Part shown: positions 45,224 through 49,516 of the stretch, one piece after another | How the letters are laid out: each line of letters opens with the position of its first letter | Numbering within the stretch: position 1 is the first letter of the stretch | Source: Chloroflexota bacterium | Lineage (GTDB): Bacteria; Chloroflexota; Dormibacteria; Dormibacterales; Dormibacteraceae | NCBI GenBank assembly: GCA_005882115.1 | Contig: VBEG01000024.1 | Coordinates: 1 to 64,000 of the forward strand | Direction: 5' to 3' | DNA: 64,000 nt | Program-made: the position numbers and the translations under genes | Notes under the pieces: generated by a model | What the model was told of the DNA's origin: nothing | The model's database searches: none | Seen by the model: the letters and a program-made list of their open reading frames with translations, nothing else

Positions 45224-45250
45224 GGGCCGACAAGACTACCGACGGCATTA

Positions 45251-45626
45251 GGCGCGGGTGAGGACGCTTGTCCTCCCCCGCGGAACCCCCTCCTGCCACC
45301 AGCGACGCGTGGTGGCGAATGGAATGAAGCGCCTGGGGACGGCCGGAATAATCCGGCCTGGGGCCACACCTCGTCTCGATTAGAGGCGCGGGTGAGGACG
45401 CCTGTCCTCCCCCGCGGAACCCCTCCTGCCGCCAGCGACGCGTGGAGGCGAATGGAATGAAGCGCCTGGGGACGGCCGGAATAAATCCGGCCTGGGGCCA
45501 CACCTCGTCTCGATTAGAGGCGCGGGTGAGGACGCTTGTCCTCCCCCGCGGAACCCCCTCCTGCCACCAGCGACGCGTGGTGGCGAATGGAATGAAGCGC
45601 CTGGGGCCTCACCTCGTCTCGCGTTA
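45251..45626. repeat. 134-nt tandem repeat, 2.8 copies
   Basis: Three head-to-tail copies start at 45251, 45385 and 45519, an exact period of 134. Copies 1 and 3 agree to the last shared base, while copy 2 carries a few substitutions; copy 3 lacks a 29-base internal block. Each unit has GAGGAC-GCYT-GTCCTC, CCGGA-ATAA-TCCGG (copies 1 and 2) and CCACCA-n8-TGGTGG as inverted repeats. Reading frames cross it in all copies, but none resembles a protein I know. It fills the 416-base gap between the MOSC and DinB genes. Confidence 0.85.
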
Positions 45627-45639
45627 ACATGGCCGGGCC

Positions 45640-46221
45640 ATGACGGGCGTCGACGTCCTGCGCGTGCTCCTCAGCGGGTCCTTCGGGATGGTCCAGGAGC
45701 GACTCGATGCAATCAGTGACCAGGAGTGGAACCAGCGCGCGTTCCCTTCGACGAGCAAGCCTGGGTTCATCCTCTGGCACTGCGCGCGCATCCTCGACTG
45801 GACCATTCACTCCGCAATCCAGGGCATTGCCGAGGTCGCCGACTCGTCCACGTGGCAAGGGCGTTTTGCGCGCGAAGCCTGTTACGGCGCAGGGATCGCA
45901 GACTCCCTCGCGGACGAGGTCACCGCATCGACGTCCAGGACAGAGGTCGCTGCATATCTCCGCGACGTGCGAGCGGCCGTGATGGACTGGTTCGCGAAGC
46001 AGACGGAGTCGAGCCTCGATGCGGCGCCGCCACTCAAAACGAACCAGGCGAATCGCGCCGGTTATCTCGATCCGAACATCTGGGCCGAGGTCGAAGATCT
46101 CGATGGCCTGCCGGGATGGCAGCTGCTGCTGCGACCCGCGGGCGCGCATATCAGACGCCACATGGGTGAGTACGACGTTCTGGTCGGCGCGATGCGGAGC
46201 CGGACTACGACTCGAGCGTGA
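45640..46221 (+). CDS. DinB-family metal-binding protein
   Basis: A 193-residue DinB-like four-helix bundle. [21 protein letters not shown] opening and [15 protein letters not shown] hold the first metal His, and [16 protein letters not shown] the second region with His. Such proteins are thiol transferases (for example bacillithiol or mycothiol dependent) or of unknown role. The start is ATG 45640, just after the repeat array. Its end overlaps the convergent peptidase gene by 17 bases. Confidence 0.8.
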
Positions 46222-49200
46222 AGCGGACCGTGTTCTGCCCGATGGCGATCATGTCGCCGTCGGTGAGCTGCTTCTCGATCACCTGCTCACCGTTGACCTG
46301 CGTGCCGTTGGTGCTGCCGAGGTCGCTGATCCAGAACGAACCGGTGCGGACCTCGATGCGCCCGTGATGGCCTGAGGTCGCGGGATCGCCCACGACGACG
46401 TCGTTGTCAGGCGCGCGGCCGATCGTGACCATCTGGTTGGGCAGCGCGACGATCCTTCCCGCGAACGGGCCCGACTCGAAAGTGAGCATGGCCGCGAACG
46501 TCGAGCCCGCCGCCACCTGTTCCGGCGGCATCGCCTGCAACGAGACCGTGCGCCTGGAATCGGCGTTCGGGTCGGTCTGCTGCCAGACCGGAATGACCCC
46601 CGTTGCCTCCTCGAAAGATGCCGGCTCTGCCGGCTCTCCGTTTCCGGGTGCGGTGGATGGCGCCCCCGACGGCCAAGCCACCAGCGTCGAGCTCACGTCC
46701 GGGGCGGAGGTCTGGGCCGCGGGCTCGGCGGCGCTGGCCGCCATCGGCTCGGGCTGCAGCTGACGCTCGCGCTCGGGCTCGGGTTCTGACTGGGGGGTGA
46801 ACGCCTCGGCGACCAACGGCTCCGGCGCACGCTCCGGCTCCCGCTCTGCCTCTGGCTCTGGCTCCGCAACGGGCGGCGGCTCGCCGAAGTAACCCGGCTC
46901 GTCGAAAGCGGACAGCGCCGGCTCCGTGATCGCGGACACCAGCTCCACGGATTCGGGTTCGGCCTCACGCTCAGGTTCGGGCTCCGGTACGGGGGCCAGC
47001 GCCGCGATCGCAGGTTCCGGCTCAGGTTCGGGTTCCGTGGCAGGCTCCGGTTCGCGCACAGGCTCCGGCTCCGGCGCCGGCTCGGCGACGACCGGTTCCG
47101 GCTCAGGCTCGGGCTGCGCCTCGACCGTCTCCGGAGCGGCCTCGGCGGCAGGCTCGAGCTCAGGCTCCGGTTCGCGCAGAGGCTCTGACTCCGGCGCCGG
47201 CTCGGCGACGACCGGTTCCGGCTCAGGCTCGCGCTGCGCCTCGACGGTCTCCGGAGCGGCCTCGGCGGCAGGCTCGAGCGCGGGCTCATCCGGACCGGGC
47301 AGATCCGGCAGTGCCTCCGGCTGGATGATCGGCGCTTCCGCCGTCGCGTCGTCGGGGACGGTGGGCTGGATGACCTCCGGCTCGACGACCGCGGTGACTG
47401 GCGACGCCTCGGCCGCAAGCTCGTCAGCCTCCGGCCGGCTTCCGATGGCAATTGTCTTGGCCCACTCACGCGGCGCCTCGGCCGGGATGGGCAGAATCTG
47501 GGTCGCCTCCTCCGAGGCGGGTCGGTCAACCGCGGCCGTGCCGAGGTACCGCTCGTACCAGCCGGCGATCCGGCGCAACCTCTCGACCCGGCGGTCGGGG
47601 CGACCGTTGCGCGACAGGTCGTGCGATTCCTCGGGGAATCGCACGAGCTCGACCGTTTTGCCGAGCAGGCGCATGGCGCCGAACAGCTCCTCCGACTGCG
47701 ACATCGCGCACCTGAGGTCCATCTCGCCAGCGGTGAGCAAGAGCGGGGTCTTCATGTTCTGGACGTACCGGATCGGCGAACGGCGCCACAGCTCGTCGAG
47801 GTTCGGCCAGGGCGGCGGACCGAGCTGGAGGACGCCCCACAGGACGATGTCGTGTTGCGGGTACTCGCTGACCAGGTTGGAGATCGACCGCATCGAGACC
47901 GCGGCCGAGAACCGGTTGGTCTGGCCGATGATCCAGTTGGTCATGTAGCCGCCGTAGGAGCCGCCCCCGACGCCGAGCCTGTTCGCGTCGATGTACCCGG
48001 CGCGCTCGATGATCTGGTCGAGCGACGCCATGAGGTCGAGGTAATCCTTGCCCGCCCAGTCCCGCACCACGTCGCGGCGGAAACGCTCGCCGTAGCCGTC
48101 GGAACCTCGCGGGTTCATGTAGAAGACGACGAAACCCATGCCCGCGAGGATCTGCAGCTCGTGGAAGAAAGACCATCCGTACTGGGCGTGCGGACCGCCG
48201 TGGATCTCCATCACGGTCGGATGGAGGCGGTTCGGGTCGAAGCCCTGCGGTTTGAGCACCCAGCCCTCGAGCTTCCAACCGTCCGGAGCGGTGAAGTACT
48301 CCTGCTCCGGCAGCGCTACGAAGCGCTCGTGCAGCCATGGGTTCAGGTCGGTGACACGTGCCTCCGCGCCTTGCGTGAGCATGTAGAGCTCGCCTGGGTT
48401 GGTCGGGTCTGAGGCGCAAAAGACAAGGACGCCATTGGCGACGTCGAAGTCATAGATCCGGCGCCGCCCGCCGGCCTCTTCGCGAATGTTGCCGTCGAGA
48501 TCGACCGAGTGGATCGAGGTCACGCCCGATCCGCTCGCCGGGAAGTAGATCCGGTCGCCTTCCGCCGACCAGATGACCCTGGTCGCGTGGCCTGCGCGCA
48601 TGTCGTTGATGACGCTGTCGTTGACCGCCTGGTCGAAGTCAGCCGTGAGGCAACGCGGTCCTCCGCCCGCGAGCGGCACAACCCACATGCGTTCCAGCAG
48701 GCCGACGTCCAGGCCGTTTGGCGCGATGAACGCGATCATGTCGCCCTTGGGCGACCAGATCGGCGAGCTCAGGTAGAAGCCGCCGCCGAGCCGGACCAGA
48801 TTCGTCTCGAGGTCGACCAGGTACAGGTGGAGCTCGCGCTGCAGGTCGGAGCCCGGCTCTGCGTTGCCGGCGACCACCAGGCGCGAGCTGTCGGGCGACC
48901 AGTCGAAATCGCTGACGTCCCACGCCCCGTCGGTCAGCTGCTTCACGTCTCCGCCGGTCGCGGACGCGACGTACAGGTGGTGCATCCGGCCGTCGACATA
49001 ACCGCGCCCGTCGTGCTTGTAGTCGAGCCGGCGAACCACCCGCGCGACAGGCGCCCGACGAAGCTGGTCGCGGCTCTCAGGCGGTCGCGGGTCGTCGACG
49101 ACCGCGTCGGGGTCGGCCAGGACCGACCCGAGAAACGCGATTCGCTTGCCGTCGGGTGACCATCGCGGCAGGCCGACACCGTCAGGCACCGAGCTGAGCT

Positions 49201-49516
49201 GCTGAGCGGCAGCGCCGGTGGTGACATCGAGCACGAAGAGTTGGTCCGCAGCGCCGACGCGGCTGACGAAGGCGAGGCTGCGGCCGTCGGGCGACCATTC
49301 GGGAGAGTGATCGCGGAGCACTCCCGCGGTCGGTTCCACAGGCTCGGGATCGAGCAGGCGGCGCACGACGATTCGGCTCCGGCTCTGCCTTGCGCCCGCG
49401 TCAGCCCAACCAACCTGGTACGCGACCCGTTCGCCGTCTGGGCTCAGGCGTACGTGGTCGATCCAACGAAAACGGTAAAGGTCCTCGGGAGTGATCGGGG
49501 CCGGCATCCGACGCAT
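46205..49516 (-). CDS. S9-family peptidase fused to a C-terminal FHA domain
   Basis: A 1103-residue fusion. Residues about 1-400 form the WD-like propeller ([27 protein letters not shown]). Residues 400-655 form the alpha/beta hydrolase: [11 protein letters not shown] with Ser about 520, [11 protein letters not shown] with an Asp near 600, ESHDLSRNG with His about 630, so the triad is complete and the class is acylaminoacyl peptidase-like. Residues 655-1000 are Glu/Pro/Ala linker with a duplicated 40-residue unit. Residues about 1010-1103 are an FHA domain ([29 protein letters not shown]), which binds phosphothreonine. No signal peptide: cytoplasmic. The combination is rare to my knowledge. 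Confidence 0.85.
47041..47280. repeat. 120-nt tandem duplication coding the Glu/Pro linker
   Basis: Two copies (47041-47160 and 47161-47280) in exact 120-nt register, differing at about seven positions. They encode 40-residue units beginning [15 protein letters not shown]. This is a recent in-frame expansion of the linker between the peptidase and FHA domains. Confidence 0.8.

Follow-up and report, generated by a model that had tools for sequence, protein, structure and literature searches.

Layout of the fusion gene

The window analysed here, a stretch of 64,000 nucleotides, belongs to contig 33 (209 kb), in a genome of 3.36 Mb that is 96.5% complete. The named relatives of this genome are soil metagenome genomes labelled Chloroflexi or, in one case, "Candidatus Dormiibacterota". 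An open reading frame without internal stops encodes a single protein of 1103 amino acids, in which an S9 peptidase is followed by an acidic linker and an FHA domain. Because the homologue alignments begin at residue 3-4, the likely start is M4. The features of the gene, all on the minus strand, are as follows.

46205..49516, minus strand: S9-FHA fusion gene, 1103 aa; likely start M4 (49507)
48332..49486, minus strand: N-terminal beta-propeller, residues ~11-395 (PD40/DPPIV_N matches, AlphaFold2 strands, whole-length alignment to 8wt1)
47537..48331, minus strand: alpha/beta-hydrolase catalytic domain, residues ~396-660 (Peptidase_S9 match, triad)
47957-47959, 47717-47719 and 47621-47623, minus strand: codons of the catalytic triad, Ser520, Asp600 and His632
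46550..47536, minus strand: disordered acidic Glu/Pro/Ala linker, residues 661-989 (pLDDT, composition, dN/dS)
47040-47159 and 47160-47279, minus strand: tandem duplication of 120 nt in the linker, copies 95% identical
46208..46492, minus strand: FHA domain, fold ~1009-1103, Pfam core 46238-46429 (Pfam, AlphaFold2, Foldseek)

The catalytic part has the marks of peptidase family S9, namely a Peptidase_S9 domain (residues 448-659, E=8.9e-50) with a Ser-Asp-His triad and an N-terminal beta-propeller that is matched by PD40 and DPPIV_N in Pfam. The triad is invariant in 30 of 30 S9 relatives. At the other end of the protein, Pfam places an FHA domain at residues 1030-1093 (E=9.9e-19, 68 bits versus a cut-off of 20.7), and its phosphate-contact residues, GR(1034), S1048xxH1051 and N1070-G, vary little or not at all across 28 modules. 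The preliminary description had placed the peptidase triad and the FHA binding residues together in one 1103-residue protein, and every one of them (S520/D600/H632 and GR, SxxH, NG) is present. The AlphaFold2 model consists of the propeller, the hydrolase, some 330 disordered residues with pLDDT mostly below 50, and the FHA fold, which reaches a pLDDT near 90 when modelled alone. No signal peptide could be recognised on reading the N-terminal sequence. The fusion protein is best read as a cytoplasmic member of the S9-carboxypeptidase/acylaminoacyl-peptidase branch of S9 peptidases. Its catalytic part has its nearest relatives among the S9 carboxypeptidases, so trimming of C-termini would be a reasonable guess at its role, and only that.

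The linker (residues ~661-989) is rich in Glu, Pro and Ala, and across homologues it spans 190-347 amino acids with a net charge of -23 to -75. It had been described as expanding and as carrying a 120-nt tandem duplication. The duplication is real (95% identical copies at 47040-47279), and the remainder of the linker consists of older short repeats. "Expanding" holds in the sense of length variation between species. A separate tandem repeat of 134 nt (2.7 copies, 95%) lies outside the gene at 45250-45606 of the window, between the MOSC and DinB genes, and degenerate copies of it (72-83%) at some nine further sites in the genome mark it as a dispersed repeat family.

Distribution and origin of the fusion

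The fusion was searched in 61 relatives and then in 110 genomes of the class. Among these 110 genomes it is confined to the family of the window (Dormibacterota-like), where it occurs in genera g1, g2, g3, g4, g7, g9 and g11. The peptidase and the FHA domain lie in one reading frame in 22 of the 24 fused rows of the S9 tree. For the remaining pair, L027 and L110 (the g9 genome), the contig stops within the linker, and their status as fused is inferred; the FHA end of the g9 genome was found on another contig (L072). In one further fusion homologue (L005/L021) the FHA domain is split between two frames, reflecting either a real loss or a faulty assembly.

When the S9 tree is built with class-level outgroups, all fused peptidases group in a single clade (support 100/99), which requires one state change. 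There is no reversal on the tree, and the FHA domain is retained in all seven genera of the clade. The peptidase is unfused in genera g5, g6, g8, g10, g12, g13 and g14 of the same family, where it measures about 670-680 amino acids when complete and terminates shortly after the hydrolase. The flanks of the fusion are conserved across species, with a divergent molybdopterin oxidoreductase upstream and MOSC or DinB plus two SCP2 genes downstream. In L038 the unfused gene has the same neighbours, the oxidoreductase on one side and the run of SCP2, SCP2 and hydroxyacyl-CoA dehydrogenase genes on the other. The single clade and the shared neighbourhood with and without the FHA domain indicate that the FHA end was joined once to a resident peptidase gene and was then retained. 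Homologues in which the two parts are separate, which the preliminary description had named as a reason to doubt the fusion, occur in sister genera only and represent the ancestral state.

The same description had also considered an assembly join. The genome is fragmented (147 contigs) and probably metagenome-assembled, which would favour a chimera or a sequencing artefact; however, the same fusion is directly observed in 22 genomes and the flanking genes are conserved across species. A join is excluded by these observations, and an artefact of any kind is so improbable that we set it aside.

To place the family within the phylum, a sample of 201 genomes was queried with the hydrolase domain, and the S9 domain was present in 94 of them. 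Long-frame S9 matches outside the family were considered as further fusions; those checked stop at the hydrolase without an FHA domain, their extra length lying upstream. Seven long FHA frames, a subset of those found in the phylum, were likewise scanned for S9 fusions and rejected: four are FHA-clostripain proteins, two are FHA-ABC transporters and one has no other Pfam domain.

The FHA domain has a dN/dS of 0.117, equal to that of the catalytic domain (about 0.12), and the linker (residues 661-940) has a dN/dS of 0.354; all are pairwise estimates that are not independent of one another. The catalytic and FHA parts therefore appear, by this comparison of sequences, to be under equal purifying selection. 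This bears on the view that the FHA end is a functionally neutral, dispensable appendage retained on an ordinary housekeeping peptidase. Sister genera manage without the FHA domain and the linker evolves fast, as that view would have it, but the low FHA value and the retention of the domain in every fused genus make it very improbable.

Threonine motifs and the FHA paralogue

The linker, otherwise hypervariable, contains threonine motifs that hardly vary, chief among them E-x-A-T-x-[VI]-I-P-x-W. Four were delimited, all on the minus strand.

47489..47512, minus strand: motif 1, EEATQILP (T672), directly after the peptidase; Thr in 16 of 18 fusions
46670..46690, minus strand: motif 2, STLVAWP (T944); Thr in 18 of 18 fusions; counterpart in the paralogue V-A-A-T-M-[IV]-A
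46583..46612, minus strand: motif 3 (T972), consensus E-[EA]-A-T-S-[VI]-I-P-A-W, candidate phospho-switch; Thr in 18 of 18 fusions
46538..46555, minus strand: motif 4, RRTVSL (T990), bordering the FHA domain; Thr in 18 of 18 fusions

Motif 1 is not present in the unfused orthologues, whose C-termini end soon after the domain. Two g7 species (L028 and L035) lack this motif or have it displaced, and therefore not every site is essential. Linker threonines are followed by I, L, V or M at position +3 in 35% of cases, versus 15-17% for S, E, P and A, with the related sequences inflating the weight of this difference. New here is that the FHA domain did not come alone: conserved threonine motifs were also added on the tether. 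In the AlphaFold2 models the motifs are disordered; the method cannot model phosphate, and the models do not bear on docking. When T-x-[VILM]-[IM]-P-[AV]-W was tried as a genome-wide motif at the DNA level, the fusion was the only gene-like match of four, the rest looking like chance; this search missed the FHA paralogue, presumably through a TTG leucine codon.

The paralogue is the one other FHA protein of the genome (L083 10106-11656, 516 aa), which has a membrane segment at its N-terminus and a region rich in Pro. Its gene lies directly upstream of a PP2C phosphatase gene (L083 9302-10078), and this FHA-PP2C pair is found in most family genomes examined. In an unrooted tree the fusion FHA and the membrane-anchored FHA form separate clades (100/100). 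On this evidence the fusion FHA and the module of the membrane-anchored protein are diverged paralogues; the direction of copying between the two would be a matter of interpretation. In two genomes of genus g5 (G020 and G032) neither FHA module was matched at E 0.001, and most other family members have at least one.

The membrane-anchored protein has counterparts of three of the linker threonine motifs. In an alignment of 28 modules from both paralogues, the columns of the motif-3 threonine and of the tryptophan that follows it are invariant. Motif 3 lies about 36 residues ahead of the FHA domain, and the equivalent distance in GarA is 33 amino acids (pThr22 to the start of the alignment). The PP2C itself ends in a conserved tail, TAVLPK (TKTAVLPK), TQALPR or similar, which resembles the motifs of the fusion linker.

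Six Ser/Thr kinase domains are present in the genome, and none of the six kinases has T-x-[VILM]-[LIM]-P outside its kinase domain. A check for nearby Ser/Thr kinases, proposed at the outset, was thus borne out for the genome and not for the neighbourhood: no kinase gene adjoins the fusion, and the nearest on the contig are about 120 kb off. Elsewhere on the window's contig (L049, ~197.5-201.3 kb), another S9 peptidase gene is followed directly downstream by a kinase-like gene whose DFG motif is degraded (TGFG).

A proposed phosphorylation-dependent peptidase and its known relatives

Our main reading, to which we assign a probability of about 0.5, is that the fusion is a cytoplasmic S9 carboxypeptidase-type enzyme whose choice of partner or activity would be switched by Ser/Thr kinases through the tether threonines and the FHA domain. 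Protein breakdown in this family is probably wired to Ser/Thr kinase signalling. The basis of this reading can be read directly in the sequences: a single-gene fusion of single origin, intact catalytic and FHA residues, shared threonine motifs, and the presence of kinases and PP2C. From it we infer phosphorylation, FHA binding, an effect on activity and a substrate. The proposal that this could be a kinase-controlled or phosphoprotein-targeted peptidase had been made in the preliminary description; it is supported in part, by the six kinase domains, the FHA-PP2C pair, a GarA-like FHA domain under strong selection and the flanking threonine motifs, with no kinase gene adjoining the fusion.

In the working that we propose, Ser/Thr kinases would phosphorylate the conserved tether threonines, the best candidate being T972 (EEATxVIPxW), with T672, T944 and T990 as further candidates. 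The ligand of the FHA domain would then be a phosphothreonine of the fusion itself, reached in cis or across an S9 oligomer, or else one carried by a kinase, by PP2C or by the sister FHA protein. The closed or docked state would set the location, reach or activity of the peptidase, and PP2C would reset the switch. Somewhat doubtful, in our estimation, is the full form of a kinase-switched peptidase, in which phosphorylation of the tether makes the FHA domain close on or release the S9 part, and a T-x-[VIL]-[LIM]-P code links the peptidase, the membrane FHA protein and PP2C in one dedicated circuit ending in proteolysis.

A possible alternative, which we regard as tentative, is targeting without a self-switch. 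The FHA domain would dock a constitutively active peptidase on partners bearing phosphothreonine, namely kinase tails, the tail of PP2C and the membrane FHA protein, and so bring it to the membrane or to phosphoproteins, with the linker threonines serving as docking sites for the other FHA protein and not for the fusion's own. The conserved TAVLPK motif of the PP2C tail is consistent with this, as are the same motifs in the membrane-anchored paralogue, which would allow reciprocal binding in trans, and the recruitment of GarA by PknG through autophosphorylated N-terminal sites (PMC8546545). However, motif 3 is similarly close before the FHA domain in both paralogues, as in the self-switch of GarA. 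In GarA and OdhI the FHA domain binds its own phosphothreonine in the ETTS phospho-switch motif (ETTSVF) (PMC8546545). An FHA domain that acts independently of phosphate, as a protein-protein adaptor or oligomerisation unit with little part for the kinases, is improbable. Its closest solved relatives, GarA and OdhI, do bind metabolic enzymes when unphosphorylated, and unphosphorylated OdhI inhibits 2-oxoglutarate dehydrogenase (PMC9769921); but the canonical GR, SxxH and NG residues are kept and the threonine motifs are conserved against a fast linker.

If the kinase-switched reading is true, Ser/Thr phosphorylation directly controls proteolysis in an uncultured bacterial lineage, by a coupling gained once and kept across seven genera. 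The candidate phosphosites are few and named, which makes the idea testable.

FHA domains are familiar chiefly as parts of small regulators, kinase partners, transporters and secretion proteins. An S9-FHA fusion with conserved threonine motifs was found neither in the literature (open-licence papers) nor outside this family (201-genome phylum sample, long-frame cases checked), and as far as could be searched the fusion is unreported. The coupling of FHA to a peptidase as such is already known, because FHA-clostripain proteins occur in the phylum and an FHA-FHA-trypsin of Bacteroides thetaiotaomicron is in print (PMC2605481). In L133, L134, L139 and L140, from other Chloroflexota families, the FHA domain is N-terminal to a clostripain (C11). 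These proteins resemble the fusion in having FHA and peptidase in one chain, but their catalytic families are unrelated and their FHA domains N-terminal, which points to separate fusion events.

For the catalytic part, the top fold matches are the S9 carboxypeptidase of Geobacillus stearothermophilus (8wt1), whose propeller and hydrolase align with residues 11-658 of the fusion (E ~1e-126), and the S9 peptidase of Deinococcus radiodurans (5yzm/5yzn). All share the triad and an [MQD]-R-[SC]-I-S-N segment after the nucleophile; unlike the fusion, their chains stop after the hydrolase, without linker or FHA domain.

For the FHA domain, the closest solved structures by sequence and fold are GarA (Rv1827) and OdhI (Foldseek E=1.1e-10, rmsd 1.0 for GarA). 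A conserved E-x-T-S-V-like motif stands some 35 residues ahead of their FHA domain, and the fusion has EEATxVIPxW rather than ETTS at equivalent spacing. They are small standalone regulators (~140-160 aa), whereas the fusion FHA is the C-terminus of a 1103-residue peptidase, and it scores 56 bits against the OdhI model (NCBIfam cut-off 200) and 74.5 bits against FhaB/FipA (NF049868, cut-off 125), below both. The FhaB/FipA-type paralogue shares the FHA type and the motif counterparts, but has a membrane anchor and Pro-rich region instead of a peptidase and forms its own clade.

EEATSVIP and EATSIIP belong to the same sequence class as the phospho-switches of GarA/OdhI and of DgcB, the FHA-GGDEF diguanylate cyclase of Bdellovibrio, which is activated by its own tail NLEK(pT)SIVASDT, whose +3 Val sits in a pocket (PMC6733907). 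As in the fusion, an enzyme is there joined to an FHA domain, with a phosphorylatable threonine motif, EK(pT)SIV, on a flexible segment (PMC6733907). The enzyme is a different one, however, and in DgcB the FHA domain precedes the catalytic domain on a short linker, whereas in the fusion it comes last, on a tether of about 190-350 amino acids.
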